A DNA stretch of 48,708 nucleotides from a virus. This document shows, piece by piece, positions 17,514-34,926 of this stretch (position 1 is its first letter; each line of letters begins with the position of its first letter). A program made the position numbers and the translations under genes. The stretch lies in the IMG/VR virus record IMGVR_UViG_3300032294_000457, positions 1 through 48,708 of that record, one strand, 5' to 3'. The notes beneath the pieces are model-generated. The model saw only the letters and a program-made list of their open reading frames with translations, ran no database searches and was not told the DNA's origin.

Positions 17514-19793
<2,280 letters not shown>

Positions 19794-19850: not shown

Positions 19851-21056
19851 TTAAACCGCTATAGTTGTTCGTAAATATTTTAAAGTAGTTACTGCATGAT
19901 CAGGTGTAAACCTTAACTCAATATCTCCTGATCCAGCCCATTGTATACGATTGATTAATAGAGTTGGAGTTCTAGTCTCTATAGTAGAAGCTCCGTAAAC
20001 TCCAGTTGAAACTTCAGTGAATGCTCCATTTAATGTAAACGTTGTAGCTCCATTGTTTAATGTAAATACTTCTCCGTCTTCAGCAGATAATAACCCTAAG
20101 ATGACATTAGAGTCTGTAGTGTAGACTCGGACAGAAGTATTGTTCCAATATGATACACCACCAGTATTAATTGCAGGTGATGTATAGTCATTAATTGCAG
20201 GTGAGTAGTACGCTTCAAACAAACCGATTGGATCACCTATGGTAGCATATTGTGTTAAGAACACGTTAGGTAAATCTATTAATAATCGTAACTCGGTTGC
20301 TTGATATAATGATGATGTAGATAGTTGCATCTCATACTTGGCGCTTCTATATAATGCAGGATCAATTACTTCTATGACTACTTTATCTGTGGTTGATGTA
20401 GTAAATACTGTTTCGACTAGACCAAAGCCAGTAGCGCCAGTTAAACCAGTCGCTCCACTTGCACCGTCCGAACCAATATAGCCAGACGCACCTGAAATAC
20501 CTGATGCACCTTGTGCTCCAGTTGGACCAGTAGCTCCTGATGCTCCCTGTACACCTACAGCGCCATCAAGATTAATTTCCCATGAACTGTATGTACCAGA
20601 ACCTGACGCATCAGTCTTAGTGAATACTAATTGACCTGTTGCTGGGTTATATGATGTGACTCTACCGTGTTGATGATTGCTAGCATTGAAAGCTAAGATG
20701 ATTGTTTGTGCAGTTGAATAATCAAGGTCTAAATCATCAGTAATAACTGTTACTGTGCCAGATCCACCGATTGTAAACGTGGAAGATGAAGACGTGTGAT
20801 AACGATCGCCTTGTACACCACTAGCACCCTGTGCACCAGTCGCACCATCAAGACCTACATAACCTGATGCTCCTGAAATACCTGACGCACCTTGCGATCC
20901 TTGCGGGCCTGAAGCACCGCTTGCTCCCTGAGGACCTGTAGATCCTGAAATACCACTTGCACCCTGAGGGCCTGTAGCTCCATCAATTGCAACAGTAGCT
21001 CCAGCTGATAAACCTTGTATACCAACCGCGGTGACTTCTGCGTAAATATCTGCCAC
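19851..21056 (-). CDS. Short collagen-like tail fibre protein
   Basis: The 401-residue protein starts at a GTG (21054-21056) with an AAAGGA ribosome site. Its N-terminus (MADIYAEVTAVGIQGLSAG) differs from that of the other collagen-like fibres. Two short Gly-X-Y blocks (about residues 25-85 and 170-215) flank one copy of the recurring beta domain that ends SSWEINLDG. The remaining C-terminal 185 residues form a larger beta domain beginning with a segment related to the other fibres (VVIEVIDPALYRSAKYEMQ). It may be a short fibre or an adaptor between baseplate and longer fibres. It is coupled to the small BppU-like gene 11 nt upstream. Confidence 0.78.
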   Translation of the reverse strand: MADIYAEVTAVGIQGLSAGATVAIDGATGPQGASGISGSTGPQGASGASGPQGSQGASGISGASGYVGLDGATGAQGASGVQGDRYHTSSSSTFTIGGSGTVTVITDDLDLDYSTAQTIILAFNASNHQHGRVTSYNPATGQLVFTKTDASGSGTYSSWEINLDGAVGVQGASGATGPTGAQGASGISGASGYIGSDGASGATGLTGATGFGLVETVFTTSTTDKVVIEVIDPALYRSAKYEMQLSTSSLYQATELRLLIDLPNVFLTQYATIGDPIGLFEAYYSPAINDYTSPAINTGGVSYWNNTSVRVYTTDSNVILGLLSAEDGEVFTLNNGATTFTLNGAFTEVSTGVYGASTIETRTPTLLINRIQWAGSGDIELRFTPDHAVTTLKYLRTTIAV

Positions 21057-21478: not shown

Positions 21479-21883
21479 TTAGACATTTATCATAAATTCC
21501 TCTACAAAATACTTTTTAACATCAGCAACATACCCTATATTTTGATTAAACTGCCATCCGCCTATACAACCTAATATTTGATTATAAGCTGTAGGGTCTT
21601 CATCATACGTTACAAAATACGGATCATTCCCAAATAGTAAATCTATATCATTTAAGTAGTCAATAGGATTACCGCCAAACTCTTCTGATAGCCATCTAGC
21701 ATAACATATGGCAACCATATAGCTCTTAGATGGATATATCCAACCTAAGTTATCTTCTTTAAAGTATCTCACAGCATCTGTCACTATGTTATCTGTGATG
21801 ACTATATCTTTATCATTTAAGTCATCATCATGGACGGTATTTAGTCTATGATAGAGTTCTTGCCTTATTTTCCAATCTTCCAT
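21479..21883 (-). CDS. Hypothetical protein, last gene of the radical SAM cassette
   Basis: The 134-residue protein starts at the ATG at 21883 (MEDWKIRQELYHRL). An upstream TTG at 21898 in frame is less likely. It is acidic, with a helical N-terminal half, then MVAICYARWLSEEFGG and an aspartate-rich centre (YLNDIDLLFGNDPYFV). No Cys motif, signal or membrane segment is seen. It overlaps the preceding radical SAM gene by 38 nt, so it is made with it and may be its partner. I do not recognise a family. Confidence 0.6.
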   Translation of the reverse strand: MEDWKIRQELYHRLNTVHDDDLNDKDIVITDNIVTDAVRYFKEDNLGWIYPSKSYMVAICYARWLSEEFGGNPIDYLNDIDLLFGNDPYFVTYDEDPTAYNQILGCIGGWQFNQNIGYVADVKKYFVEEFMINV

Positions 21884-22793
21884 GTTTATACCAATCAATT
21901 AGTCCTTTATATCCATTACATCCATTATCTAAGTCTTTAACATAACGATAATGTTCTGTCAAACACTTACCATAATAATCACATGACTTACATATATGAC
22001 TTATATTATTAGGTTCATTTAGTGCCCAATCTTTATACTCTTGTATTGAGTCTAAAGTCTTAAAGTATTCTTTATCATTTAGGTCAAACTCAAGGACAGC
22101 AAATTGTCCAGTTGGAGTAATGTATACATGATCATTACTGAATGCATTACGAGATCCATCCAAAGTGGCTTGAATGTTCTTTTCATTGACAAACTCAAAC
22201 CTCATTTGTATATCACTATCTAACCATTTTTGTACAAATAACTCAAAGTCTTTATGGCTGACGGAGTGGCAGTTTGCTTGGTTGATACTATACGGTTTAA
22301 TCTCTACAGAACTTAAGTTACTTAATAGGTTTAACTGAGATATCATCTCACCTACATCTTTATTTATTAGATCTTTACTGGCTAAGATTAATATAGAAAA
22401 TGGATTATTAAGAGCAAACATATTATCCCATACACGATCATATTGTTCTCTACATTCAAAGTCATAGCTAACAGATACATATAAATCTGGGTTGGTTATA
22501 ACTCTATTCACCATACTTAAATTAGTGATTATGTTTATATCATTAATGCCACGTGATTTAACTATAGCACATAGTTCTTCTACATAATCTTCAGGTAATA
22601 ATCCTATCTCTCCGCCATATAAATCTATCCCGCCAATCTCATCAACAGACAAAACTTCATCAAGTCTCTTTTCTAATACTCTTAAATCTAATAGAGTTTT
22701 GTCGTCCAATTGTTCTTTAGTTAAGTAGCAAAAGTCACACTTAAAGTTACAGTAATACCAAGGGTTGATTGATAAGTTAATTTTACGCATCAT
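21846..22793 (-). CDS. Radical SAM protein with C-terminal cysteine cluster (cassette member 7)
   Basis: This 315-residue protein has the radical SAM [4Fe-4S] motif CNFKCDFC at C15, C19 and C22, right after NLSINPWYYCNFK. The SAM-contact motif LYGGEIG follows near residue 59. A C-terminal cluster, CKSCDYYGKC near residue 271 followed by GCNGYKG, resembles a reduced SPASM/twitch auxiliary cluster. Such enzymes cleave SAM to a 5'-deoxyadenosyl radical and often modify peptides. Two ATGs (22793 and 22790) are possible starts. It overlaps both neighbours, implying tight coupling. The substrate is unknown; the CHxS-tailed protein at 31663 is the obvious candidate. Confidence 0.85.
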   Translation of the reverse strand: MMRKINLSINPWYYCNFKCDFCYLTKEQLDDKTLLDLRVLEKRLDEVLSVDEIGGIDLYGGEIGLLPEDYVEELCAIVKSRGINDINIITNLSMVNRVITNPDLYVSVSYDFECREQYDRVWDNMFALNNPFSILILASKDLINKDVGEMISQLNLLSNLSSVEIKPYSINQANCHSVSHKDFELFVQKWLDSDIQMRFEFVNEKNIQATLDGSRNAFSNDHVYITPTGQFAVLEFDLNDKEYFKTLDSIQEYKDWALNEPNNISHICKSCDYYGKCLTEHYRYVKDLDNGCNGYKGLIDWYKHGRLENKARTLS

Positions 22794-23460
22794 AATAATC
22801 TAGTTTAGTTTCAATATGTTCTTGCAGATTGTTTTTCCAAGATTCAAATTGTTTAATTGCTTTCTTGTGTAAACTATGATGCCCCAATATATTAAATGGA
22901 TTGAACCATAATTTATATTTACTGTGGTTAAATTCTATCCTAACGTAATGGTAGTTATCATAGTTGCGAAATAGAGAAATGTTCATATCACGTACTTCAT
23001 TAAATTTATTCTTTTCATTATCTTCTATACGCCTATATTCATCAGATCCATATTGACTAATATTTGATAGCGATTCATATTCTTTAAATATGATGTCTTC
23101 GCTTGGCACATCATTTATAAACTTACGTGCATTTTCTTGTGTATTAAACGCTAATGTAAAATAAAACTCTTTCCATGGATCTACATGACCAGCACAAGAA
23201 CTTACTGTTAGATAACCTTTATCTTGCAGTGATTTGATGATTGGCCAAACACCATCTTCTATTTGCGTTCTAAAGTCTTTGTGATATGGACTAACAACAA
23301 CAGCAATATATTTTCCATCGTTTGTTGTACAATAAATACGCCCATCTTTATGTTTTTTATTTGGGCAACGATTAATAATCTCTTCTTCGTAAGATTTTTG
23401 TTGTCTATATTGTTTATATTCAGACTTTACTACGTATTCAGTTTTAATATTCTTGAACAT
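22783..23460 (-). CDS. Hypothetical protein in the radical SAM cassette
   Basis: This 225-residue basic, aromatic-rich protein begins MFKNIKTEYVVKSEYKQYRQQ. A central block, KYIAVVVSPYHKDFRTQIEDG, then GYLTVSSCAGHVDPWKEFYF, looks like an alpha/beta domain with a conserved-looking SSCAGH loop. The C-terminal third contains many His and Asn residues (NYHYVRIEFNHSKYKLW, LGHHSLHKK). It lies between two radical SAM genes and overlaps both. I cannot assign a family. The SSCAGH loop recalls Tyw3-like SSCxGR motifs only superficially, so I do not name it. Confidence 0.62.
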   Translation of the reverse strand: MFKNIKTEYVVKSEYKQYRQQKSYEEEIINRCPNKKHKDGRIYCTTNDGKYIAVVVSPYHKDFRTQIEDGVWPIIKSLQDKGYLTVSSCAGHVDPWKEFYFTLAFNTQENARKFINDVPSEDIIFKEYESLSNISQYGSDEYRRIEDNEKNKFNEVRDMNISLFRNYDNYHYVRIEFNHSKYKLWFNPFNILGHHSLHKKAIKQFESWKNNLQEHIETKLDYYDA

Positions 23461-24511
23461 ATGGAGTAGGTTGTAGTTCGTTAGTCAATCCATTGGCCTC
23501 AATTATATCTGGAGCTAATTGTTTCATTCTATAACAATGATCTTCTACCAATTCATAGTCTTTTAGATCTTTAATTGTTTTTCTACAGCCATTACAAATA
23601 GAGAACATTGGACAAGAATAGCATGAAGATTTTAGTGATTGTAATTCTGGTTCAAATCTTAATGGATAAACTTTATCACCATTCATTTCAGACTTGAAAT
23701 CTATGGAATGAGATCTATCGTCGCCAAAAGCCCCACATGAATAATAATCACCAGATGGTTGGAGTGTTCTAATGCCTCCATCGCATTCTCTATTTTGAGG
23801 ACATGTTGTGCCGAGACCTTTCAGTCTAACAATCATTTGTTTAGTGTTGTATTCCCACTCTGTCAACCCAAGTTTCCAGATTTTAACATAAATCTCATAC
23901 ACTTTAGATAACACGTATGGCTTACCTTCTTGACCCATCATGATATTACGAAATTTGACAGGAGGCCCAGAGGACATTGCGTAATTTAGTTTACACTCAA
24001 CACCCATCTTCTTAGCAAGTTCAACGTTCTTAATAGCTAAGTGTTCATTTTCTTCTGTGATGACTGATATAAATCCAGGTCTATATCCAACTTTCTCAAG
24101 CATCATATCACTTACTGCCCAAAAGTCTTCTTCACTAAACTCAGTAAGATCTCCCTTCAATCTTCCACCACCATATTGGAATGATGTAGTAATGCCCATT
24201 CGTGGATGTCTAAACAGATCAACCCATTTTTTTGGATTTTTATAAAACGGCCAAAGATTACTTGTGAAAGAAATAGATGTGCTTAGACTATTATCATCTA
24301 AGTACTTAATGATTTTCCAATAGTATTCTGGATCCATCATTAATGGATCTCCACCATTAACAATAATTGTATTGGTTTCTGGAAATCTTTTTAAGAAATC
24401 AAAGATATACTGGAGATCTAATTCGGCAGTTTTATCATCAGTAATATGAGTGCTAGAACAGAATGTGCATTTAAAGTTGCACTTCTCAGTTGGTTTTATT
24501 ATTAGATCCAT
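23444..24511 (-). CDS. Radical SAM/SPASM-like protein (cassette member 6)
   Basis: The 355-residue protein starts at the ATG at 24511 (MDLIIKPTEKCNFKC); a GTG 18 nt upstream is an alternative. The [4Fe-4S] cysteines lie in CNFKCTFC and the SAM motif is VNGGDPLM. In the C-terminal third, cysteines in TTCPQNRECDGG, YYSCGAFG, SSCYSCPMFSICNGC and DHCYRM form a full SPASM-like set. SPASM proteins bind two extra clusters and usually modify ribosomally made peptides or act as sulfatase maturases. It has the most complete auxiliary-cluster signature of the downstream group. It overlaps the previous radical SAM gene by 26 nt. Confidence 0.87.
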   Translation of the reverse strand: MDLIIKPTEKCNFKCTFCSSTHITDDKTAELDLQYIFDFLKRFPETNTIIVNGGDPLMMDPEYYWKIIKYLDDNSLSTSISFTSNLWPFYKNPKKWVDLFRHPRMGITTSFQYGGGRLKGDLTEFSEEDFWAVSDMMLEKVGYRPGFISVITEENEHLAIKNVELAKKMGVECKLNYAMSSGPPVKFRNIMMGQEGKPYVLSKVYEIYVKIWKLGLTEWEYNTKQMIVRLKGLGTTCPQNRECDGGIRTLQPSGDYYSCGAFGDDRSHSIDFKSEMNGDKVYPLRFEPELQSLKSSCYSCPMFSICNGCRKTIKDLKDYELVEDHCYRMKQLAPDIIEANGLTNELQPTPYVQEY

Positions 24512-25547
24512 ATTGTAATAGATTCTCACTATCCATTCTATTAAAGAACTCTCTAAATAGACAGTCCTGGGTTCTTTCTAGTTTTGCCCAATCAGCTTGA
24601 ACAAAACATCTAAACTGACAACGATCAAACCATTTACATGATAAACATTGGTTTCTATCTAAATGTGATTGGATAATATTACTATTTGATTTGTAGTCAA
24701 TCTTATTTATGAAAGTCACAGGATCATAATTGATATAACGACATGTGACTTCTCTTCCGCTTGGGAGTATTGTCGTCTTATTCATGGAGTAACAAGTCAT
24801 CTTATTTCGTTCATTAACAATAAGATCTTTTATTGGATATATCTCAGGGTAATTTTTAGCAATGAATAACATGCAGTCCAACATTTCGTGCTCAGTTGGC
24901 ATCATTTTTTCTGCATTTGCTTCTGGAACATAATAATCAAAGTATAGTGTATAGTTCTCATAAAGATAATCTTTAAAGAATTTATCAGTCCTAGTTAATA
25001 TCCTTTTAATTGCTTGTTTAGTTAATACAAATCCAACTACTGTAATAATATCTTTAAAGCTTTTAATGTTGTGTTCAAATTGTACTGTTCGATTTAAATT
25101 CAATCCACGGCCAGCAAAGTCATATGAAGTTGAAATATATGAATTAGGTTTAATAGCCCTTAATGTATTAATAAAATCTTTTACGCGTTGTGATTTTAAG
25201 AATATTAAGTTAGTAACCCAATTGAATCTTACCGTATGATTATTGTCGTCACACCAAGAATTGATAGTGTTATAAAATTTTATATAGCTTTCAAATGTAT
25301 CATCTGGTACTAAATCATTGAATATTTCACCACCCATAATATTAACAATGTGGCTATTCATATTAGACTTTTTCATAAAGTCTATAACTTGTAAAGCCTT
25401 TTCCTCGATAGTGTTCATACCTTCTATAGAGTCGTGATCTTGCCCACAGAAAGCGCAACTCAAGTTACAGAACTCAAATAGATGTAACTCAATCTCAGTT
25501 GAGTCTGGCATTTTATCTTTTAAAACATGTCTTAGGAATTCACTCAT
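24486..25547 (-). CDS. Radical SAM protein with C-terminal cysteine cluster (cassette member 5)
   Basis: The 353-residue protein has CNLSCAFC at C27, C31 and C34, then NIMGGEIFNDL as the SAM-binding GGE motif. The C-terminal auxiliary region reads QCLSCKWFDRCQFRC, with another Cys in QDCLFREFF. A preceding segment, MTCYSMNKTTILPSGREVTCRYINYD, matches the substrate-side strand seen in SPASM enzymes just before the clusters. The start overlaps the upstream radical SAM stop by 8 nt. It is clearly different in sequence from its neighbours apart from the motifs, which argues for a separate role, not a recent duplication. Confidence 0.86.
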   Translation of the reverse strand: MSEFLRHVLKDKMPDSTEIELHLFEFCNLSCAFCGQDHDSIEGMNTIEEKALQVIDFMKKSNMNSHIVNIMGGEIFNDLVPDDTFESYIKFYNTINSWCDDNNHTVRFNWVTNLIFLKSQRVKDFINTLRAIKPNSYISTSYDFAGRGLNLNRTVQFEHNIKSFKDIITVVGFVLTKQAIKRILTRTDKFFKDYLYENYTLYFDYYVPEANAEKMMPTEHEMLDCMLFIAKNYPEIYPIKDLIVNERNKMTCYSMNKTTILPSGREVTCRYINYDPVTFINKIDYKSNSNIIQSHLDRNQCLSCKWFDRCQFRCFVQADWAKLERTQDCLFREFFNRMDSENLLQYGSNNKTN

Positions 25548-26547
25548 ACACCATATCCATAAAGCATTTAAGCTTAAATTTGTTTGCTATTAAAAAATAA
25601 CCCTTACCCAAGCACTGAGTAAGATGATTACAATCTTCGCACTTATCTAATATTACATTATTTATGTCTTGTAATTGACCATATGTATTTAAAAATGCAT
25701 CGTATGTAGATCCATTTACCAAATACTGTTCATCATCAATATACACATATTCGTCAAATGGAATAATTGGATTAAGATATATTCTATTTGGATTGCCAAC
25801 AAAAGAAAAAGCCGGTTTTCTCAACAAAGTTCTATTGTTATATTTAATTTTAAACTCTTCATTAGATTCATAAAAGTCTCCAAATTCATTGATTGTTCTA
25901 ATGCTTTCTTCTAGCATTTTTTTCTTCTTATCAAATTTTATTTCTTTATTATATAAAAATGTAAAATTTAATTCTACAATTTCATCATCTGATAAAAAAC
26001 TAATTAATTCTTTTAATTTTTCTTTTTCGATTTTGCTTAATTTAAATCCAGTATTGATAGCAAGATTAATTACTATTCTATCCTTATATTTTTCTTTAAT
26101 TGCCTTAATTCTACTTTTTATAATTAGTTGATAATTTACATCAAATAACTTAGCAATTAATAGATTAATTTGAAGTTCTATCTTTAGGTCTTTGCTTATG
26201 GAATCTACAAGTTCAAAAAATGAATGGTCAAATTCAGTCTCTATTGTCGATGCTATTCCAACATATGAAAACATCTTTAATGTATTCTTAAAATCTTCAT
26301 TGTGTAATAAGAGATAATTATCTGGATTGTCAAAAATATCAGTTGGAAGCAAATAACATGTCTCCAACTTATAATCATTTGCTACAAGATCTTTTGCTAG
26401 GTTGTATGCAGAAGAAAAATCATTAAAATTATTATCAGTCTTTTTATAAAAACACCCACGACAATCCATAGAACAATGATTTAGAATCATCATCCTAAAT
26501 TCTACTAACTTATGCGGATCGCCATATCGCTCATATGAATTATGCAT
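25540..26547 (-). CDS. Radical SAM-like protein, divergent (cassette member 4)
   Basis: The 335-residue protein keeps the CxxxCxxC motif at C25, C29 and C32 (NHCSMDCRGCFYKK). I see no clear GGE motif: the region where it is expected reads TCYLLPTDIFDN, as in the protein at 27645 (IAPTDFLS). A C-terminal cluster, DKCEDCNHLTQCLGKGY, ends close to a last Cys in KLKCFMD. Many lysines and a helical middle set it apart. It and the 27645 protein form a subgroup with a PTD-containing strand in place of GGE. Its start follows a small unknown gene by 11 nt. Confidence 0.8.
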   Translation of the reverse strand: MHNSYERYGDPHKLVEFRMMILNHCSMDCRGCFYKKTDNNFNDFSSAYNLAKDLVANDYKLETCYLLPTDIFDNPDNYLLLHNEDFKNTLKMFSYVGIASTIETEFDHSFFELVDSISKDLKIELQINLLIAKLFDVNYQLIIKSRIKAIKEKYKDRIVINLAINTGFKLSKIEKEKLKELISFLSDDEIVELNFTFLYNKEIKFDKKKKMLEESIRTINEFGDFYESNEEFKIKYNNRTLLRKPAFSFVGNPNRIYLNPIIPFDEYVYIDDEQYLVNGSTYDAFLNTYGQLQDINNVILDKCEDCNHLTQCLGKGYFLIANKFKLKCFMDMVYE

Positions 26548-26558
26548 GTTTAAAGAAT

Positions 26559-26954
26559 TTACTCATATACGTGTGTGATATCTACGTCATCGACGATAAA
26601 ATTATTAAGTTTAAAACATCTATTTGGTTTATTTCTTAAATGCACTAATGCTAGTTTAAACTCATTAGTCCATTTTTCTTCCTTTTCCATGGAAGAACTT
26701 AGTACTTTAAAAAGTTCACTTGCAGTTTTGATTCCAAGCTCTTCAGTCAAATATAATATATTATTATCTATTAGACGATATTCTAAGGCCATAGGATAAT
26801 AATATTCAGAATTATATTCATAAATTACTATGAATGATATATCATATCTTGCTTCTTTAAAATGCGCAAACTCAATCTTTGCATCACCATTTAAATTAAC
26901 TTTGGTTATAGTGCAAGAAGTTATGGGTTTGCTATTGCGAATAAAATCATTCAT
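26559..26954 (-). CDS. Hypothetical protein in the radical SAM cassette
   Basis: The 131-residue protein begins MNDFIRNSKPITSCTITKVN. Alternating hydrophobic residues (DISFIVIYEYNSEYYYPMALEYRLI) suggest an antiparallel beta sheet, followed by a helix (TASELFKVLSSSMEKEEKW). Size and fold order would fit a small partner or peptide-recognition subunit, but I see no known RRE or HxsD signature. Its start overlaps the upstream gene stop by one base. Function unknown. Confidence 0.6.
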   Translation of the reverse strand: MNDFIRNSKPITSCTITKVNLNGDAKIEFAHFKEARYDISFIVIYEYNSEYYYPMALEYRLIDNNILYLTEELGIKTASELFKVLSSSMEKEEKWTNEFKLALVHLRNKPNRCFKLNNFIVDDVDITHVYE

Positions 26955-27652
26955 TATAAAATCTCAGAGAAACAAATGTCTTTTGCCCATCGCATAGAAA
27001 GGTCCTTTGATACATCTCTATTTGAGCCAAAAACTATATTACTATTATCTGTCGTTAAAAGCTTTTCAAGGTTTAGATCTATTGACACTATTTCATTTAT
27101 GATTATAGTACCAATAACTTCTGCTGGTATGAATAGATCACTAAAGTTTTCATAAATGCTTGATACGTATTCTTTTACAAATGTGAAAGGAACATTGATA
27201 GTTTCTACTGTGCTTTTTCTATAATCATCATAGCCCAATAATATAGAATCTTTGGTAAAATGTATTAAAGCTCCCATAAAGAAGTATGTAGTATCAACTT
27301 GTAAATCTTTTAAATTATTTTTTTCTAATAGAACTAAATCGTATTGGTTTGCATGGAGCATCCATGATTTATATTTTTCATCTAGTAATTCATAAATTGC
27401 TAAATCAGATCTGCCTTTTAATCTATCATCAAGTTCATTCAATCTTTTACAAGGATAATTCATTAAATCACCATATGATAAAGGTTGATTAAAATATGCT
27501 TTTAATAGACCACTAATAGTCATTTGTCCAGAATCATACTTCCTTGTGCCCATAGTAAATCTATAGAATCCCGGAAAGTAATCACCAGAAGATAAAATCA
27601 TTTTAGCATATTCGACATCATCAATATATGCCAAATCAATTAAGTTAGTCAT
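26954..27652 (-). CDS. Hypothetical protein in the radical SAM cassette
   Basis: The 232-residue protein starts at the ATG at 27652 (MTNLIDLAYIDDVEYAK), which keeps an 8-nt overlap with the preceding radical SAM gene. An earlier ATG at 27676 would extend the overlap to 32 nt. It has an N-terminal tyrosine- and phenylalanine-rich part (DYFPGFYRFTMGTRKYDSG), a central helical region and a C-terminal strand-helix block. There is no cysteine motif. I cannot name a family. Its place between a radical SAM enzyme and another small unknown suggests a three-gene unit. Confidence 0.6.
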   Translation of the reverse strand: MTNLIDLAYIDDVEYAKMILSSGDYFPGFYRFTMGTRKYDSGQMTISGLLKAYFNQPLSYGDLMNYPCKRLNELDDRLKGRSDLAIYELLDEKYKSWMLHANQYDLVLLEKNNLKDLQVDTTYFFMGALIHFTKDSILLGYDDYRKSTVETINVPFTFVKEYVSSIYENFSDLFIPAEVIGTIIINEIVSIDLNLEKLLTTDNSNIVFGSNRDVSKDLSMRWAKDICFSEIL

Positions 27653-28748
27653 TATACGGTAATGTGCCCATGGCATTAACTACACACATGGCGTCTTTGG
27701 CTACCAAACAATCTTTTATTCCATGAATATCCATAAGATGTAGTATTCCTCTATCTACACAAGATCCTAACATTGAGCAATCTCCACATTCTGTTTTATC
27801 CCCAACATTCAAATATTGTTGCAGTTGAATATCTTGTTCGAATTGTTCAAATTCTTTGGCATTATAATCTTTAATTGGCATTTTTAATTCGTCTACGAAA
27901 GAAACATATCTTTCATATAACAGTGGTGAATAATAAAATTCACCATTTTTCCAATTATACTGTCTTTCCACTAGCGAATCATTCAATCTACCAAATGAAA
28001 ATCTTAAATAACCAGATTTTTCCGTAGAAACCAAAGAAGTATTAAACATATTTTTAATTCTCATAGCGGCTGATTCAAACTCTTCTTTAGTTAAACTAGA
28101 GTCTTTTCTCCCAAGAGAAAAATTAAAATCTATGGTAGTTTCAAAAAGATGTTTAACCTTTTGATGTAAGTAATCATAATCTTTTAGGATGTGTGCAAGT
28201 TTAGTACTATCATAATCATATACATTCATGATACCAAATGACCTAACTTTAGTAGGCCAATTCAATAATTTTATCATTTTGTCTTGATGAGTTTTAAGAA
28301 CTTCCAAATATTTTTGATTTTCTATTTTATCTGGTTCAATTATGACATTAATCTCCAGTTCCATATTTGAATAATGCTGTTTTAAAACGTCTGCAACTAA
28401 ACTTGCTTTGTCCATGCTTAAATAAGTCGTCTGCAATGAGATACGTTTAAACTTATTCAAGATCTCAATAACACGTTTATCAGTTAAAACGGAATATGTG
28501 TTAGTTGCTGATAAAAAATCAGTTGGTGCAATGAATGCAATAAAAGGCTTGTATGAATTTTCAGGTGTGAAAGAGTTCATTATCTTCATTAGTTGAAGAT
28601 AACTCTCATCGTTAATTGCAGCAGAACCATTTTTATTTACATGGCAACCTTTACAATTAAACTGACATCCATTTAAGAATTCAAAGTTTAAATTAAAATA
28701 GAATGTGTTAGATTCATTTAAACTTCCAGAAGCTAAATATGCATCCAT
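27645..28748 (-). CDS. Radical SAM-like protein with C-terminal cysteine cluster (cassette member 3)
   Basis: The 367-residue protein carries CQFNCKGC at C28, C32 and C35 (FLNGCQFNCKGCHVNKN). The strand that normally ends in GGE reads FIAFIAPTDFLSATN, as in the related 25540 protein. The C-terminal cluster is CGDCSMLGSC near residue 325, followed by a last Cys in KDCLVAKDAMC. Between them is a long helical region with a possible substrate-binding strand (KSGYLRFSFGRLNDS). It starts 1 nt after the upstream unknown gene. The two PTD-type proteins may form a heteromer or act in sequence. Confidence 0.82.
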   Translation of the reverse strand: MDAYLASGSLNESNTFYFNLNFEFLNGCQFNCKGCHVNKNGSAAINDESYLQLMKIMNSFTPENSYKPFIAFIAPTDFLSATNTYSVLTDKRVIEILNKFKRISLQTTYLSMDKASLVADVLKQHYSNMELEINVIIEPDKIENQKYLEVLKTHQDKMIKLLNWPTKVRSFGIMNVYDYDSTKLAHILKDYDYLHQKVKHLFETTIDFNFSLGRKDSSLTKEEFESAAMRIKNMFNTSLVSTEKSGYLRFSFGRLNDSLVERQYNWKNGEFYYSPLLYERYVSFVDELKMPIKDYNAKEFEQFEQDIQLQQYLNVGDKTECGDCSMLGSCVDRGILHLMDIHGIKDCLVAKDAMCVVNAMGTLPYND

Positions 28749-28749
28749 A

Positions 28750-29466
28750 TTAAATCTCGAAATTTGGAGGAGTTAATGGTAATTCTTTTGAAATTAGTTG
28801 TTTAAGTAATGGAATGAATGCATTACACTCGTTATTATAATATTCAAAAAATGATTTACCTTTAAACATATATACTTCAAAGTGTCGTTTAAAATAGTAT
28901 AATGCTACTGATTTATCTGCGCCAAAGTAAAGTTCTAAGAATGCAGGAATCTTTAATAGATTAATAACGTTTAAACCAACAAAGTTTTCATCATCAATAA
29001 TAGGAAAAGTTTCTTCTACTTTAATTTTCTCATTTAAATCTTTATAAGAATAGATTAAGAAAACCATAGTTGAATCTAAAAAGATCAACCATCTTTCAAT
29101 GTCTGATTTATTTTTTTCTATGAATGTATCACACTCTTCGGCCGTAAGAGATAATGTTTTAAATAACAATGACGGATCGGATCCAATCATATGTAAAATA
29201 ACTTGCGCCATCATGATGTTCAAAGCAGGAACATTAGTAATATTTTTAATATCTAAATACGCTTCTAATAAAGCTAACTTCTTTTCTTTGCTTAAACAAT
29301 CCAATTTAAGATCACATGGAACGTCAAGATTTGACAAATACGTTAAAAAGATTTTGTTTTGAAGTTTACTATTTTCATAGTCAATTAAAAACATTATGTT
29401 TTTATCTTTAAAATACTCTTTAATACAGTCAATTGGAATAGGTGCAATTGTATCAATATATTTCAT
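28750..29466 (-). CDS. Hypothetical protein in the radical SAM cassette
   Basis: The 238-residue mostly helical protein begins MKYIDTIAPIPIDCIKEYF and contains LQNKIFLTYLSNLDVPCDL and a long hydrophobic helix pair (LNIMMAQVILHMIG, WLIFLDSTMVFLIYSY). These helices are not long enough to be confident membrane spans. It overlaps the upstream radical SAM gene by 14 nt and is followed after 1 nt by the next. I do not recognise a family. A substrate-carrier or adaptor role is possible but only by position. Confidence 0.6.
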   Translation of the reverse strand: MKYIDTIAPIPIDCIKEYFKDKNIMFLIDYENSKLQNKIFLTYLSNLDVPCDLKLDCLSKEKKLALLEAYLDIKNITNVPALNIMMAQVILHMIGSDPSLLFKTLSLTAEECDTFIEKNKSDIERWLIFLDSTMVFLIYSYKDLNEKIKVEETFPIIDDENFVGLNVINLLKIPAFLELYFGADKSVALYYFKRHFEVYMFKGKSFFEYYNNECNAFIPLLKQLISKELPLTPPNFEI

Positions 29467-30577
29467 AATTATTCCTTAATTCAGTTAAATTGTTTTTAGC
29501 TTTGTCTTCATATAGTTTTATAAAAACTTCTTTATTATTTCTAATCTTACTTATAACACTTTTAGATAATGGGCATTCATCTGACTCATCAAACAAACTT
29601 GCATCACAATTACCACCACATATATCGTAATGTTCACATTCAAAACACATAGTATGTTGATCCATTTCAACTAACTTTTTCATCATTACATCTAGTGACT
29701 TATTTTGGAATGTAGCCCAATCTTGTTTCATTTCAGTAGTAGTTGAAAATGGCTCAACATAAGTTTTATCTGGACATAAACCAACAGTACCATTTGGATT
29801 TAAAGTAAAAGTGCGTTTATCACAACAATTACATTTACAATCGAACATATTTCCGGTAATTAATGTCTTTGTAAAAAGATCTATTTGTGGTAAACACCAT
29901 GTAGTTTTATTATGCTGATAATAATCTACTAACTTCTCTAACCATATAGCCCATTTTTTATTATTGGGTTTTAAGTTTCTGGTTTGTTCATCGAATGTAG
30001 TTAATAACTCAAAGTCAATTGAATCAACACCATCGAACATTTTAACAATCTCAAGAGGATCGTAGTTTAACAAATGTTTTTGAGCAGTAATTGCTATATG
30101 AACTTTTATATCATTTGCAAGAAGTTGTTTTAAATTGCTAAAGAATAGATTTTCTTGATCAGTCTTCTTATTAATTGCAATAGATCCAAATCTAATGTCA
30201 GCATCCCAAGAAACACCAATGGTTGATCGATACTCAGTCTTTACAAAATTAATAAACTCATCATCTATAGTATATAATAGATTTGTTTGAGGAACTATAT
30301 CCATTCTTATATTAGGAAATTTAGATCTGATTATTTTATTAACATCAGCTAAATGTGAATATGGCGCAAGAAAAGTTTCTCCGCCATGTATATAAAATGT
30401 AGCTTTTTGGGGATTAACATTATCTTTTATGGATGACAAAAAATCCTCAATATAGTTAAGATCAGTAACCATATAAGGATCTTTATTACCAAGAGTAAAA
30501 CAGTGAGTGCAATTTAAATTACACCCCTGCACAACTCTTAAGTAAATAACATTAAATTCATTACTAAATATATTCAT
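29453..30577 (-). CDS. Radical SAM/SPASM maturase-like protein (cassette member 2)
   Basis: This 374-residue protein has VVQGCNLNCTHCF (C19, C23, C26) and the SAM motif FYIHGGETFL. Its C-terminal region has cysteines in CKCNCCDKRTFTLNPNG, GLCPDKT, and CFECEHYDICGGNCD, then DECPLSK. This is the anaerobic sulfatase maturase/peptide-modifying SPASM architecture with two auxiliary clusters, and it parallels the protein at 32317 closely in layout (CNLNC-HCF, HGGE, FTLN-NGT, CGG-C). The two are likely paralogues flanking the CHxS-tailed protein. It starts after the cassette's only appreciable gap (41 nt). Confidence 0.88.
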   Translation of the reverse strand: MNIFSNEFNVIYLRVVQGCNLNCTHCFTLGNKDPYMVTDLNYIEDFLSSIKDNVNPQKATFYIHGGETFLAPYSHLADVNKIIRSKFPNIRMDIVPQTNLLYTIDDEFINFVKTEYRSTIGVSWDADIRFGSIAINKKTDQENLFFSNLKQLLANDIKVHIAITAQKHLLNYDPLEIVKMFDGVDSIDFELLTTFDEQTRNLKPNNKKWAIWLEKLVDYYQHNKTTWCLPQIDLFTKTLITGNMFDCKCNCCDKRTFTLNPNGTVGLCPDKTYVEPFSTTTEMKQDWATFQNKSLDVMMKKLVEMDQHTMCFECEHYDICGGNCDASLFDESDECPLSKSVISKIRNNKEVFIKLYEDKAKNNLTELRNNYEIY

Positions 30578-30595
30578 ATTATAATAAACAATTCA

Positions 30596-30610
30596 CTTAA
30601 TAATATTAAG
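30596..30610. repeat. AT-rich inverted repeat in the cassette's largest gap
   Basis: CTTAATAATATTAAG is a perfect 7-bp inverted repeat around one base, in the 41-nt space before the second SPASM gene. A TATAAT-like hexamer lies between it and the ATG on the minus strand. It could be an operator or a weak secondary promoter site, but an AT-rich palindrome of this size also arises by chance. Confidence 0.3.
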
Positions 30611-30618
30611 AAGTTGTG

Positions 30619-31662
30619 CTATTCATCCAATCTATATGATGCTAGCGCTGAAGTATCATTTGAACGGGCAATATTATAGCAATATGTTGCAAACACGTGA
30701 TTAGATTTTTCTTTAAACATTTCGCCAGTATATGTACATCCAAAGCCTCTATCAATATCTCTCCAAAGAAGCTTCTCATATTCATCATTGTTAACTAGTT
30801 GATTAAGATCATCCATTTTTTCTTCGCCAGAATACATAGCATATATTTGAGTCCACAACGGATCAAACATTTGATAATCATAAGTTCTTTTAATATATTC
30901 TCTATTATGAGTAAAATTTCTATCAATTACCCATTTTAAAGTATCACTATTCGCTAATTGCGATTCAATAGTTCCAATGTCTAAATTTAAATTAGAATCT
31001 AAAATATTTAAATTTAACGAGCCGAATATGATTTCATATTTTAATTGCTCTAATTCGTCTAACCAATTATCCCAAGTCATAACTTCTATTTTTGATAATA
31101 GCGCACTTTTATATTTTGTAGATCGATTATAAACATAATCAGCAAGTAAGTACTCAAACGACAATAAAGATTTATCTATGCGTTGCAAAGTTTCACAAAT
31201 AACTGTTTTATCATACACATCTTCAAACGCGGAATATTCCATTGGATGAATAGTATCCAATATTATTTTTTTCCGATTGTCATTGACCGACATTTCGTAA
31301 TATGATCTTAGTCTTGTACTTTCAATAAATGAAACATGGATTTTATATAAGTCTTCACAAGAAGCGTATTTAAATACATTTTTTAAAAATTCAATTTGTA
31401 ATTCATATAATTTACTAGGTTTTACATATAAAATAACTTTGGCAGGTCTATTAATTAAATCTTTCCATAAATTTTCTTTCCTGCCATTGAATGAATAATT
31501 AATTAAATCCTCAAATGTTGGTTGAGATTCATAAGCTTCATTGTTTTGCACAGTTATCATTGGCTTATTGCCATAAATATCTGATGCTAATATAAAGTCT
31601 TTTCCAGCTGGTTCAAAATTAAAATCAAAATTTAAGTAAACCGAGTTAAATAAATGAAACAT
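30619..31662 (-). CDS. Hypothetical protein immediately after the CHxS-tailed protein
   Basis: The 347-residue protein starts MFHLFNSVYLNFDFNFEPAGKD and is largely helical after residue 60, with many Tyr, Asn and Asp residues. No cysteine cluster or known motif is visible. Its ATG directly abuts the stop of the CHxS protein, and its purine-rich ribosome site is formed by that protein's last codons (31666-31677). Such strict coupling suggests the two proteins are needed together, for instance as substrate and chaperone or binding partner. I do not recognise a family. Confidence 0.65.
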   Translation of the reverse strand: MFHLFNSVYLNFDFNFEPAGKDFILASDIYGNKPMITVQNNEAYESQPTFEDLINYSFNGRKENLWKDLINRPAKVILYVKPSKLYELQIEFLKNVFKYASCEDLYKIHVSFIESTRLRSYYEMSVNDNRKKIILDTIHPMEYSAFEDVYDKTVICETLQRIDKSLLSFEYLLADYVYNRSTKYKSALLSKIEVMTWDNWLDELEQLKYEIIFGSLNLNILDSNLNLDIGTIESQLANSDTLKWVIDRNFTHNREYIKRTYDYQMFDPLWTQIYAMYSGEEKMDDLNQLVNNDEYEKLLWRDIDRGFGCTYTGEMFKEKSNHVFATYCYNIARSNDTSALASYRLDE

Positions 31663-32298
31663 CTATCTTCTTCCTCTAGAACCATGACACGATGCGTGGC
31701 ATGATGTGTGGCAAATTCGGAGATCTATGATATCTCCATAAGTATCTGTGTTAGCTGCTATTCTTAATGAAGTATAAAAGGTATTTAATGTAGATGCTGT
31801 AATGATATCATTAGCAGCAGGACCTGAAACACTTAATGGATTTGTTCTTAAATAGGTATCATTTAAGTGAGCGTAACCAACTTGCTCTGCAAATGTGCCT
31901 AGTCCACCACCAGAATATTGGTAATAAATTCCAGCTCTAACTAATCTTACTCTCGTAGTTTGATAAGCATAGTTTCTAAGCACTGACACAATGTTACTAG
32001 CTGTAATTGCTTCTGTAAAGTCTGCTGCTGTAGGATTGGTCATACCAACACTAGGAGCAACTGTTACGTCCACACTTCCACCTCCTATTGAATTATTGAT
32101 CCAAGAGGGCGAAGGATGGAATCCTATGATAGGATATGGTCCAACATAAGGAGTGCTATTGTATTGACTAAGTGCGTAGTCATATGTTGGTTTATTACCC
32201 GAGTGCCATCTGGCCCTATTTTGCTCTGGGGCCATTACAGCACTAACAAAATCATCAATGATAGTCTGTTTTGTTACTACGGTGCCAGCTGTTGCCAT
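31663..32298 (-). CDS. Virion-like protein with C-terminal (C-H-x-S)x3-RGRR tail; candidate radical SAM substrate
   Basis: The 211-residue protein has a beta-rich, Gly/Ser/Thr-rich body like other tail proteins (MATAGTVVTKQTIIDD, YYQYSGGGLGTFAEQ, NDIITASTLNTFYTSLRI). It contains no cysteine before the end. The last residues read DLRI then CHTSCHASCHGS then RGRR: three C-H-x-S units, each containing H-x-S. The three units use different codons for Cys, His and Ser, so they are conserved as protein. It lies between two SPASM-type radical SAM genes, is abutted by an unknown gene, and has a 2OG oxygenase upstream. I infer that it is a fibre or tail-tip protein whose tail is post-translationally modified or binds metal. 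Confidence 0.75.
   Translation of the reverse strand: MATAGTVVTKQTIIDDFVSAVMAPEQNRARWHSGNKPTYDYALSQYNSTPYVGPYPIIGFHPSPSWINNSIGGGSVDVTVAPSVGMTNPTAADFTEAITASNIVSVLRNYAYQTTRVRLVRAGIYYQYSGGGLGTFAEQVGYAHLNDTYLRTNPLSVSGPAANDIITASTLNTFYTSLRIAANTDTYGDIIDLRICHTSCHASCHGSRGRR
31666..31677 (-). promoter_or_regulatory. Ribosome binding site inside the RGRR codons
   Basis: AGAGGAAGAAGA encodes the final Arg-Gly-Arg-Arg of the CHxS protein and lies 4-15 nt before the ATG at 31660-31662. It is a strong purine-rich Shine-Dalgarno sequence. The RGRR end may thus be shaped partly by translation of the next gene. Confidence 0.65.
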
Positions 32299-32316
32299 AA
32301 AATCCTCTTTATCTAT

Positions 32317-33357
32317 CTATATATGTATTATAGAAAATATCTTTTTTTTCTTAGAAAGCTCTCTCATTAAACTTTTAGGAGCACCACATATCTCATCTTG
32401 CCAAGATAATTGGTGACAATCCCCACCACAATATTGAAACACATCACATGAGTAACATAATGGGTTTCTAGACCTCTCACATGCCATATTTTCTAGGCGT
32501 ATAGGACTATTTATAAGGTTATTTATATCATCATCTATATGGCCAAATTGAAATTCTGGTGCTGAATTCGGACAGCCTGAAATCGTTCCGTCAGCATTTA
32601 ATGTGAAAATCTTTTCTTCACAATCCCTGCAAAATGTGCCACCTTTAGTAAAACCAGTGTCAAACTTAGAATAAATTGTTTCTAAAAAATCATTCTCAAA
32701 CCAGTGTCTGGCACCATATTTTTCAGATTGATGGTGCATCTTTAAAAACCAGGCATCTTGTTCGATGTTAGATGGAAATATCTCTGGAAACTTTTTAGCG
32801 TTCCCATTGTTAGTCAGTCTTTCAAATGATACCTCTTGAACTCCCAATCTTCTTATCCATCTTAATAAGACTATTGGGTCTATAGCTATAGTATCTTTTG
32901 TGACACTTATAAACAGTTTAATCGTTACACCTTCAGACAATAGAGTCTTTACATTACTTCTCCAAAGATTTACTTGTTTTTTATTATCAAACCTTATCTT
33001 TGGATCCCATGAAGTTCCAATTCTACCATTAAAAGGACCTTTTATTAAATCTATATGTTCTTGATATAACTTAAACACCAAATTGGTTGTTGCACCCCAA
33101 GTGGAATTTGTAAATAAATCTTTACAATTATTCCAGACCTCCCGCATTTGTGATGGAGGAACTAAAAATGGTTCGCCACCATGAAATTCACAATGTAATG
33201 TATCATTTTTAGATGCGTGATTGGAAAATCTATGGATCCAATCAATTACTTTATTATGATCCCAGTACACCTTTGCACCATTTATACCATTAGTGAAACA
33301 ATGACGACAGTTTAGATTACACGTCTCAGTCGTCTTTAGGTAAAACATCCAATTCAT
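32317..33357 (-). CDS. Radical SAM/SPASM maturase-like protein (cassette member 1)
   Basis: This 346-residue protein has CNLNCRHC (C13, C17, C20), EFHGGEPFLVPP for SAM binding, and a complete SPASM-like set: TFCRDCEEKIFTLN, ISGCPNSAPE, ACERSRNPLCYSCDVF, YCGGDCHQLSW and a final Cys in EICGAPK. It is a likely peptide- or protein-modifying enzyme directly upstream of the CHxS protein (18 nt gap). The start overlaps the upstream oxygenase by 32 nt. Two exact TATAAATA octamers lie near its 3' end (32508-32515 and 32520-32527) and may be extra late promoters for the next gene. It closely parallels the protein at 29453 in motif layout. Confidence 0.88.
   Translation of the reverse strand: MNWMFYLKTTETCNLNCRHCFTNGINGAKVYWDHNKVIDWIHRFSNHASKNDTLHCEFHGGEPFLVPPSQMREVWNNCKDLFTNSTWGATTNLVFKLYQEHIDLIKGPFNGRIGTSWDPKIRFDNKKQVNLWRSNVKTLLSEGVTIKLFISVTKDTIAIDPIVLLRWIRRLGVQEVSFERLTNNGNAKKFPEIFPSNIEQDAWFLKMHHQSEKYGARHWFENDFLETIYSKFDTGFTKGGTFCRDCEEKIFTLNADGTISGCPNSAPEFQFGHIDDDINNLINSPIRLENMACERSRNPLCYSCDVFQYCGGDCHQLSWQDEICGAPKSLMRELSKKKKIFSIIHI
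32508..32527 (-). promoter_or_regulatory. Two in-gene TATAAATA octamers upstream of the CHxS gene
   Basis: Exact octamers at 32508-32515 and 32520-32527 lie on the minus strand inside the 3' part of the first SPASM gene, about 210-230 nt before the CHxS protein start. They could give the structural protein its own late expression. Ile-Asn codons (ATA AAT) generate such octamers easily, so this is a guess. Confidence 0.3.
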
Positions 33358-33841
33358 TATAAGATTTATCCTTCAAATAGTTTTCTAAACCAAAGCTTAA
33401 CGTTAATGCTGCATATTCATTTAGCGCTTGGTGTGGAGTATTTGCTGGTATATACACATGTTCTCCAGCTTCTAATACTATATATGCTCCATTCACCATC
33501 ATGGTTTTCTTACCTTCACAGCAGACTATGATCACATCATCTGGATCAGTATGCATACCAAAAGATGGAGAGTTTTCTTGAGCTATAAATGCATGACATG
33601 TCACAGGACCATGATGACCATACTCATCAGCCAATTCACGACACTTATCCCAAATTACTTTAGAATATCGTTCCATTCCTTCGACCTTAATAGTCTTAGG
33701 CTTATCCTCATATAGTTCGCTAGAATGATTAAGGGGGATTTGCATCCCCCTGTCATTTATTATTGAAACTAAATGTTGCTTATATGACAAAGGGTTGTGA
33801 ATAAATTCAACAACTTCATTAAGTGTTATAATATAAAGCAC
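33326..33841 (-). CDS. Cupin-type 2OG-Fe(II) oxygenase (JmjC-like)
   Basis: The 171-residue protein starts at a GTG overlapping the upstream fibre gene by 16 nt. Its core is a cupin: SFGMHTDPDDVIIVCCEGKK gives H97-x-D99, and GEHVYIPANTPHQALN gives the distal H137, the JmjC/ROX-type His-x-Asp...His iron triad. A lysine pair in the strand GKKTMMV could hold 2-oxoglutarate. Such oxygenases hydroxylate protein side chains. As first gene of the radical SAM cassette it may act on the same virion target. An unusual G/C-rich hairpin lies in its coding sequence (33732-33751). Confidence 0.78.
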   Translation of the reverse strand: MLYIITLNEVVEFIHNPLSYKQHLVSIINDRGMQIPLNHSSELYEDKPKTIKVEGMERYSKVIWDKCRELADEYGHHGPVTCHAFIAQENSPSFGMHTDPDDVIIVCCEGKKTMMVNGAYIVLEAGEHVYIPANTPHQALNEYAALTLSFGLENYLKDKSYNELDVLPKDD

Positions 33842-34926
33842 TCCACTAATTTTTCTTCATGTGTTAAATCTGTCTTTAACGCGATTGCAATTGGATTAAC
33901 TTGTCCTAGTGTAGCTTGACCGTTTGTAGCTGCGCAAAGAGTTTCTCCCTTTCTGATAGGACCAATTACTCTAACAGGCACCCTTCCTTTGATAGCAACT
34001 GCCTGACCAGATGATTCTGAATTCATCAAGAATGCTGGATTCTCTGATATAACTCCTATAGAGTGTTGTCCTATATAATCTGATGCTGTACATTCAAAAT
34101 CTTCTTTATCAGATATGACAACAACAGTTCCAACCGGATATTTTTGGTCTGTAGTATATTTCTCGGCTAAGTCTGCATATCTAGCTGACGTTGCTGTACC
34201 ATTAAATACTGTTGCTGTTAAATTACCAAAAGCATCTCGCAATGCTATAGTATTTCCAGTAGCTGCAGTTGCAGAAGCAAATCCATCTAATAAGTCTGCA
34301 TCTAATCCAGATCCCAGTCCATCATTGCCTGAATGCCACGGAGTATAACCTAAAGCATTAGTAACATCAGTGCCGCTTAGTGAAGTACCAGATGTTGCTC
34401 TGCCTTTAGCATCCACAGTAATCTTAGTATATGTTCCAGCAACTACACCGCTTGTAGCTAGAGTGAATGCACCAGTAACGTTAGCAGATCCGTTAAATGA
34501 AGTGGTCCATGAACCGTCTCCAGTAATACTAATTGTTCTGGTATTAGCTAATGTTGCTGCTGAACCACCAGCATTACCTGTTACATCTCCCGTAACATTA
34601 CCTGTAACGTTGCCAGTTAAATTTCCAGTAACGTTGCCAATTAAGGTAGCTGTGATTGTGCCTGCAGCAAAATTGCCTGAAGAATTTCTAGAAACTAAAC
34701 TAGTGCCAACATTTGATGAGGTTGGACTTAATCCATCTACTAAGTCTGCATCTAAACCAGAATTAGCACCATCAACAGTTAATAGTTTTGAAAGCACATC
34801 TGCAGCATTATATGAAGTAGTAGTTAACTTTGTACCAAGTTCGGTATTTAATGCAGTAAAGTTGGCATCCACCTCTGCTAATGTTAGAGGTGATCCTTTA
34901 ATGCTTCGTAGTGTTAAGTCTGCCAT
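33826..34926 (-). CDS. Tail fibre protein with phage_fiber_2-type repeats and G2-like C-terminal domain
   Basis: The 366-residue protein starts with MADLTLRSIKGSPLTLAEVD, a fibre N-terminal module shared with the next gene upstream. Repeats of the NVTG-NLTG-NVTG type at about residues 95-120 match the phage fibre repeat family. LDADLLDG units appear twice. The C-terminal 110 residues (RYADLAEKYTTDQKYPVGTVV, SIGVISENPAFLMN, AIKGRVPVRVIGPIRKGETL) resemble the peptidase G2 intramolecular chaperone found at fibre ends. It should assemble as a trimer. The 16-nt overlap with the downstream oxygenase links it to the radical SAM cassette. Confidence 0.8.
   Translation of the reverse strand: MADLTLRSIKGSPLTLAEVDANFTALNTELGTKLTTTSYNAADVLSKLLTVDGANSGLDADLVDGLSPTSSNVGTSLVSRNSSGNFAAGTITATLIGNVTGNLTGNVTGNVTGDVTGNAGGSAATLANTRTISITGDGSWTTSFNGSANVTGAFTLATSGVVAGTYTKITVDAKGRATSGTSLSGTDVTNALGYTPWHSGNDGLGSGLDADLLDGFASATAATGNTIALRDAFGNLTATVFNGTATSARYADLAEKYTTDQKYPVGTVVVISDKEDFECTASDYIGQHSIGVISENPAFLMNSESSGQAVAIKGRVPVRVIGPIRKGETLCAATNGQATLGQVNPIAIALKTDLTHEEKLVECFIL

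Follow-up and report, generated by a model that had tools for sequence, protein, structure and literature searches.

Why should a T4-like phage carry a long series of radical SAM genes between its fibre genes, and on what would the encoded enzymes act? We addressed this question for a stretch of viral DNA of 48,708 nucleotides (hereafter the window), comprising positions 1 to 48,708 of the IMG/VR virus record IMGVR_UViG_3300032294_000457. The original prediction, made from the sequence alone, held that seven CxxxCxxC radical SAM proteins, six unknown proteins, and one cupin oxygenase lie head to tail with overlaps around the only structural-looking protein of the region, which ends in Cys-His-x-Ser (CHxS) repeats, and inferred that the phage matures the tail of a virion protein by RiPP-like chemistry, giving the tail tip a crosslinked or otherwise altered end. 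The observation is confirmed and extends far beyond this one window, and the interpretation is supported, although modification of the tail, the bonds that would form, and a location at the tail tip were not demonstrated.

The open reading frames and their coordinates are as originally given: 15 co-oriented genes at positions 21,479 to 33,841 (Table 1). All seven putative radical SAM proteins have CxxxCxxC near the N-terminus, but only two of them pass the curated cut-off of Pfam, whereas five match the phage radical SAM family phrog_1802 at E 1e-35 or better and the remaining two rest on the evidence listed in the table. SPASM-type C-terminal domains are supported for three to four of the seven, not for all of them.

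Table 1 Features of the cassette and the adjoining fibre gene in the window, with supporting evidence. Counts out of 54 refer to the cassettes compared; L numbers denote individual relatives.
Position	Strand	Feature	Evidence
33826..34926	-	Fibre protein with Peptidase_G2-like C-terminal region, directly upstream of the cassette; this fibre family precedes the cupin in most relatives	phrog_7389 tail fibre, E 5e-21; PF11962, 24.4 bits, just under cut-off; same cluster directly upstream of the cupin in 110/138
33326..33841	-	Cupin/JmjC_2-type Fe(II)/2OG oxygenase, candidate His or Arg hydroxylase	PF08007, E 1.7e-9, above cut-off; phrog_8014; H97, D99, and H137 (HxD...H facial triad) invariant in 100 homologues
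32317..33357	-	rSAM-A, SPASM-type radical SAM enzyme next to the tail gene; core	phrog_1802, E 1e-68; TIGR04085 SPASM, 32.3 bits; PapB-like, 47.6 bits; 54/54 cassettes
31663..32298	-	CHxS-tail protein (211 aa), the presumed substrate; folded N-terminal domain plus C-terminal CHTSCHASCHGSRGRR-stop	phrog_35144, E 1.3e-8 over residues 123-211; family invariants; model pLDDT 75.9 with a low-confidence tail
30619..31662	-	Core protein of unknown function (g30619), no CxxxCxxC	phrog_36207, E 1e-16; 51/54 cassettes
29453..30577	-	SPASM-type radical SAM, related to rSAM-A; best NCBIfam resemblance YhhB (cyclophane former)	NF041707, E 1.4e-16, 60 bits against cut-off 445; phrog_1802
28750..29466	-	Core protein of unknown function (g28750), candidate substrate carrier or recognition factor	phrog_20767, E 7e-64; 54/54 cassettes; confident model (pLDDT 87) without PDB match
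27645..28748	-	CxxxCxGC radical SAM, accessory family common in the tandem-tail cassettes	phrog_31457, E 1.6e-93; 42% identical in Burkholderia jumbo phages
26954..27676	-	Unknown accessory protein, so far seen only here and in L163	
26559..26954	-	Unknown accessory protein, so far seen only here and in L163	
25540..26547	-	Divergent CxxxCxGC radical SAM	CxxxCxxC present; weak Fer4_12; homologues in L136, L147, L163, L180
24486..25547	-	rSAM-B, core	phrog_1802, E 7e-49; 54/54 cassettes
23444..24529	-	rSAM-C, core	PF04055 above cut-off; phrog_1802, E 2.7e-63; 53/54 cassettes
22783..23460	-	Unknown accessory protein	15/54 cassettes
21846..22793	-	rSAM-D, core	PF04055 above cut-off; phrog_1802, E 6e-36; 51/54 cassettes
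21479..21898	-	Core protein of unknown function closing the cassette	phrog_20737, E 6e-52; 48/54 cassettes

To find out how widespread the tail is, a 25-aa generic tail query was first compared with phages by tblastn, which returned nothing because a query this short cannot reach the E-value, and a degenerate DNA pattern was used instead. The tail CHxSCHx[SN]CHx[SN]RGRR-stop recurs in well over 100 virus contigs, with at least 119 matching stretches in IMG/VR and 19 in 84,980 prokaryote genomes, and in essentially all true hits the motif ends exactly at the stop codon, which is far beyond chance. Nine loci where the pattern matched by chance, internally or out of frame, carry none of the cassette families. 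The C, H, and R positions are invariant in 165 non-redundant proteins while their codons vary (TGT/TGC, CAT/CAC), so the constraint is on the protein. The tail is likewise invariant in 64 proteins found without using it, and shows 91% modal identity against 59% for the rest of the protein. In one relative (L126) it is expanded to about 13 CHx units, as repeated cores are. Low-scoring tblastn hits of the tail protein to Salmonella phages do not cover the tail and were dismissed.

Co-occurrence of the tail with these radical SAM families had been proposed in advance as the test of the hypothesis, with tails common in phages lacking nearby radical SAM genes as the outcome that would speak against it; that outcome did not occur, and the association is strict in both directions. 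All 34 whole records tested with a true tail carry four to seven phrog_1802 genes, against none of the two chance-match records, and all 75 loci from the reverse search with room downstream of rSAM-A carry the tail. Among 50,697 isolated-phage records, the tail and rSAM-A occur in the same seven records. The core order is fixed in 54 cassettes, and the order fibre–cupin–rSAM-A–CHxS–g28750–g30619–rSAM-B–C–D is shared by marine T4-like phages and, less completely, by isolated jumbo phages, with cassette-type loci in Agrobacterium, Sinorhizobium, Pseudomonas, and Burkholderia jumbo phages. The phages RSF1 and RP31 are not included in the isolated-phage collection, although an IMG/VR record of 222,888 bases that we take to be RSF1 carries both tail and cassette. 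Accessory genes in other lineages include further 2OG-Fe(II) oxygenases and a KedN5-like B12-type radical SAM methyltransferase.

The location of the CHxS protein on the virion is supported by three observations: the fibre gene directly upstream of the cassette, an N-terminal domain shared with a Gly-rich fibre-like protein, and the position of the homologue in phage Atu_ph07, gp170, as the first gene of a cluster of virion proteins mapped by mass spectrometry (CDS 170-215; PMC6102473). The presence of gp170 in purified virions is inferred from the boundary of this cluster and not from the peptide list itself (Supplementary Table S5), which leaves the matter undecided. Fold comparisons of the CHxS protein, including its N-terminal fold, and of g28750 with PDB gave nothing significant, and a comparison with BFVD gave only other phage proteins, among them an Atu_ph07 protein of 296 aa, the length of gp170.

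Taken together, these data are best explained, with high confidence, by a mobile, RiPP-like phage cassette that crosslinks and oxidises the C-terminal tail of a fibre/baseplate-associated virion protein. In this view, the CHxS protein is translated with a folded N-terminal domain and a C-terminal core of three Cys-His-x-Ser units ending in Arg-Gly-Arg-Arg, after which the four conserved radical SAM enzymes (A to D), with the always-present g28750 and usually g30619 as likely carrier or recognition factors, would install covalent bonds in the repeats, most likely His(i)-to-Ser(i+2) cyclophane-type C-C bonds and/or Cys thioethers. The cupin/JmjC oxygenase, and in other lineages the further oxygenases and the methyltransferase, would add hydroxyl or methyl groups, and the finished protein would be built into the fibre/baseplate region, where the stiff, altered tail would serve adsorption or penetration. 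Our analysis directly establishes the gene content and order, the two-way co-occurrence, the invariance of the tail, the intact catalytic motifs, and the fibre-gene neighbourhood, whereas the rest is inference of graded strength: it is very likely that the tail is the substrate and likely that it is on the virion, somewhat more likely than not that crosslinks form, and about as likely as not that the tail has a role in host contact. No modification has been observed, its demonstration needs mass spectrometry of the core, and radical SAM chemistry in an aerobic marine host needs a supply of reductant and Fe-S that this fragment does not show. The locus does contain a gene for a ribosomal substrate with a conserved, repetitive core next to modifying enzymes, as is expected for RiPP biosynthesis in general. 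No peptidase or transporter was found among the families recognised in the conserved set, but several core proteins are of unknown family, so that this says little either way about leader removal and export. Similarly, no RRE or PqqD-like leader-binding domain, which is common but not universal in RiPPs, was hit by Pfam or NCBIfam models in the proteins scanned, and the radical SAM cores start within about 30 residues of the N-terminus, yet a structural RRE in g30619 was not excluded and the question of leader recognition is not settled by these searches. The accessory enzymes differ between phages, and a further-reaching reading, which we consider more probable than not, is that unrelated myoviruses share a horizontally moving cassette that rebuilds the C-terminus of a fibre/baseplate protein into a crosslinked, hydroxylated, and in some lineages C-methylated peptide, the first virion-displayed RiPP, whose tail chemistry may itself be diversified and could act as a chemical ligand (for example a metallophore-like mimic) for host entry.

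Other explanations appear unlikely. The locus looks like a RiPP gene cluster with a repeated core at the C-terminus, expanded in L126, and the CHxS protein could therefore be a very long precursor whose modified C-terminal peptide is cut off and acts as a free antimicrobial, signal, or metal chelator, but the lack of a recognised peptidase or exporter in the conserved set, the position directly behind fibre genes, the modular N-terminal domain, and the place of gp170 at the edge of the virion cluster all speak against release. It is similarly unlikely that the radical SAM enzymes act as auxiliary metabolic genes on a glycan, nucleotide, or host metabolite, with the tail as a mere neighbour or an unmodified metal-binding tail. 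Published readings of phage radical SAM clusters are indeed metabolic, both for Campylobacter phage CP220 (PMC2853527) and for the Fe-S assembly genes in T4-like marine genomes (PMC5332604), and sugar-type genes lie elsewhere in the window; however, the strict two-way co-occurrence across unrelated phages, the embedding of the tail gene in the operon, and the resemblance of the SPASM members to peptide maturases argue otherwise. Least likely of all is the binding of haem or a metal by the Cys-His pairs without covalent remodelling, the enzymes being needed only for loading. Cys and His are common ligands, and CHxSCH contains CxxxCH, which resembles a rare c-type haem motif, but haem attachment takes place outside the cytoplasm and needs no radical SAM set or oxygenases, no haem-lyase-like gene was seen, and neither the invariant Ser/Asn nor RGRR would be explained.

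The nearest characterised models of the radical SAM proteins are the peptide maturases PapB, DynA, YhhB, and FxsB, and a profile of rSAM-A hits CteB-type (5wgg) and anSME structures, but every radical SAM protein scores far below the cut-off of any characterised maturase, so that the reaction cannot be read off. Triceptides (three-residue cyclophane RiPPs or 3-CyFE products; XncB, OscB, MscB, HaaB, YhhB) are made by SPASM radical SAM enzymes acting on short aromatic-x-x motifs, in which His C2 is joined to C-beta of residue i+2 (YhhB, HaaB) or, by MscB, Phe to Ser (PMC11002830). The His-x-Ser/Asn spacing is compatible with such a bond, which was not assayed here, but triceptide precursors are bacterial and served by one radical SAM, while here a folded virion protein of about 125-310 aa with a Cys before every His is accompanied by four or more radical SAMs plus oxygenases; the best score, 60.4 bits for YhhB against a cut-off of 445, excludes membership and the others are lower. 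The His-Xaa-Ser (Hxs) system, to which the original prediction pointed, shares repeated H-x-S in a target and more than one radical SAM protein, but this is analogy only: HxsB scores 26 bits against 370 and HxsC 31.7 against 267.9, there is no HxsD hit, the tail protein matches no NCBIfam model and is thus not an HxsA-type target, and the Cys-His-x-Ser unit and RGRR end differ. To the ranthipeptides and sactipeptides (PapB, CteB) the link is that rSAM-A resembles PapB and the CteB structure and that the tail has a Cys in every repeat, but the PapB score lies below the cut-off of 340, thioether formation is not shown, and there is no dedicated small precursor. The protein-maturing anaerobic sulfatase maturase and QhpD also modify a folded working protein that is kept instead of a released peptide, yet these are single cellular enzymes for a single site, in contrast to a multi-enzyme set for a viral structural protein. 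Finally, CP220 and T4-like marine genomes also carry many radical SAM genes, for which no target protein was described; the annotated radical SAM neighbours in CP220 are amidinotransferase and sugar-transferase genes, and this phage was set aside as a relative.

Within the literature that could be searched, no description of the tail or the cassette was found. Our interpretation would give a target to a large class of unexplained phage radical SAM genes that have been filed as metabolic genes. The cultured phages Atu_ph07, FLC6, FLC8, SURPRISE13, DT01, and Phosso carry the cassette. In this view, the enzymes are also a new source of multi-step peptide tailoring that acts on a folded protein, and RiPP-type chemistry would be added to the ways in which a virus builds its particle.

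Within the 48,708-base IMG/VR virus record, 15 genes on the minus strand between fibre genes read in one direction with short gaps or overlaps. In order, these are a cupin, the radical SAM protein rSAM-A, the protein with the C-terminal Cys-His-x-Ser repeats (CHxS-tail protein), a protein of unknown function (g30619), a second A-like radical SAM protein, a second protein of unknown function (g28750), a CxxxCxGC radical SAM protein, two unknowns, another CxxxCxGC radical SAM protein, rSAM-B, rSAM-C, an unknown, rSAM-D and g21479, also of unknown function. Baseplate wedge proteins, which we read as T4 type, lie upstream of the cassette, with a fibre gene that has a Peptidase_G2-like end directly upstream, while a protein of the L-shaped-tail-fibre-assembly type and collagen-like fibres are found downstream. 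The latter fibres and other features noted in this record and in related loci are listed in the table.

Features observed in the virus record and in related loci
Sequence	Coordinates	Strand	Feature
Virus record	1143-1751	minus	2OG-Fe(II) oxygenase (PF13640, E 4e-16) outside the cassette
Virus record	7959-8732	minus	Fusion of a cytidylyltransferase-like domain with a mannose-6-phosphate isomerase C-terminal cupin domain, suggesting nucleotide-sugar or surface glycan work by the phage
Virus record	8744-9670	minus	Sulfotransferase-family protein (PF13469, PF00685), unusual among fibre genes
Virus record	15123-17489, 17514-19793, 19851-21056	minus	Three adjacent collagen-like fibre proteins with long G-x-x runs, two of them above 750 aa, next to the cassette
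Locus L126	7832-8512		CHxS tail expanded to about 13 CHx units separated by short VPV/VV spacers, a natural repeat-number variant for enzyme studies
Locus L197	8318-9241		Gly-rich 308-aa fibre-like protein that shares the CHxS N-terminal domain but lacks the tail

The tail is more than a chance occurrence. A degenerate DNA pattern of the tail (TGYCAY...) returned at least 119 stretches in IMG/VR and 19 in the prokaryote genome collection, and in essentially all true cases the protein stops exactly after R-x-R-R. In 165 non-redundant proteins the three C-H pairs and the three Arg are invariant and the fourth position of each unit is Ser, sometimes Asn or Ala, whereas the codons vary freely. The same invariants are shown by 64 proteins that were found through rSAM-A rather than through the tail. 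Across one large subfamily, the last 16 residues have 91% modal identity against 59% elsewhere. True tails also occur in contigs filed as bacterial or archaeal genomes, mostly MAGs (loci L131, L135, L136, L138-L140, L142-L144 and L147-L149), which are probably phage contigs binned with hosts; 11 of these 12 loci also carry radical SAM genes, but L140 does not in its short contig.

Co-occurrence of the tail with the radical SAM families, which the original prediction had put forward as its own test, was examined in both directions. All 34 whole virus records tested with a true tail carry 4 to 7 radical SAM genes of the family phrog_1802, while the two records with chance matches carry none, and all nine loci where the pattern matched by chance lack every cassette family. 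In the fetched stretches, 119 of 129 tail loci (the virus record described here included) contain a radical SAM gene; nine of the remaining ten were among the whole records tested and all of those nine had the genes, and the tenth is the short contig L140. Conversely, of 80 loci brought in by rSAM-A alone, 75 have room downstream and all of these carry the tail, while 5 end at the contig edge. Among isolated phages, the tail and rSAM-A are found in exactly the same seven records, namely those of the Burkholderia phages FLC6, FLC8 and SURPRISE13, Agrobacterium phage Atu_ph07 (two records), Sinorhizobium phage Phosso and Pseudomonas phage pPa_SNUABM_DT01.

The composition of the cassette was determined for 54 cassettes with more than 9 kb downstream of rSAM-A. 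The CHxS protein, rSAM-A, g28750 and rSAM-B were each present in 54, rSAM-C in 53, the cupin in 52, g30619 and rSAM-D in 51 each, and g21479 in 48. The order is fibre, cupin, rSAM-A, CHxS, g28750, g30619, rSAM-B, accessory genes, rSAM-C, rSAM-D and g21479, and jumbo phages keep cupin-A-CHxS as well as B, C and D. The accessory genes vary, with 2OG-FeII_Oxy_3 in 53/80 loci, 2OG-FeII_Oxy_5 in 45/80 and a KedN5-like B12-type radical SAM protein in 26/80. A second arrangement, common in marine contigs that include a Rhodobacteraceae bin, has two tandem CHxS proteins of about 127 aa and CxxxCxGC radical SAM proteins, with the core enzymes in a divergent block. One 151-kb phage (IMGVR_UViG_3300025138_000014, the record of loci L066, L079 and L229) has both the tandem-tail and the single-tail cassette, with 7 phrog_1802 genes.

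In contrast to the tail, the N-terminal part of the CHxS protein is not fixed and ranges over many sequence families. In four contigs (L194, L196, L197 and L198) the first 60 residues are instead fused to a Gly-rich fibre-like protein of 308 aa, which lacks the tail and is placed between rSAM-A and a shorter CHxS protein of 140 aa. The predicted structure of the CHxS protein is confident in the body and weak in the tail, has no PDB match, and matches only phage proteins in BFVD, among them an Atu_ph07 protein of 296 aa, the length of gp170. In Atu_ph07 the CHxS protein is gp170, and virion proteins seen by ESI-MS/MS have been mapped to clusters including CDS 170-215 (PMC6102473). Since the peptide table itself was not examined, this evidence for a place on the virion is strong but indirect, and detection of gp170 in virions is inferred from the cluster boundary; gp215 is the capsid protein in both paper and record, so the numbering agrees and gp170 is the edge of the cluster.

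Searches of the open literature found radical SAM clusters in phage CP220 and in T4-like marine genomes that were read as metabolic genes (PMC2853527, PMC5332604), and a list mention of cupin and Fe-S genes in FLC6 that are shared with RSF1 (PMC8066314). None of these papers describes the tail, its link with the enzymes, or a virion target, although most subscription papers and preprint servers fell outside these searches and absence is therefore not proof.

The nearest characterized relatives of the SPASM members are peptide maturases (PapB, DynA, YhhB and FxsB), and the nearest structures are those of CteB and anSME. Known triceptide enzymes join His C2 to the beta carbon of residue i+2, and MscB joins Phe to Ser (PMC11002830). 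Cys-His-x-Ser/Asn therefore offers one His-x-Ser ring and one thioether site per unit, but this chemistry is inferred, as no enzyme passes a family cut-off. The cupin has the full iron triad, and its best Pfam family, JmjC_2, contains ribosomal Arg and His hydroxylases, so that His or Arg of the tail is a natural target, which is likewise inferred rather than observed. We consider g28750, always present in the 54 cassettes and of unknown fold, to be the candidate for the carrier that brings the tail to the enzymes.

The cassette and its tail protein, as first noticed, were confirmed by our analysis. The interpretation offered in the original prediction, that the phage matures the tail of a virion protein by RiPP-like chemistry, also stands, except that the link it drew to the His-Xaa-Ser (Hxs) system is only an analogy. 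Although it has not been seen, modification of the tail is by far the best explanation.
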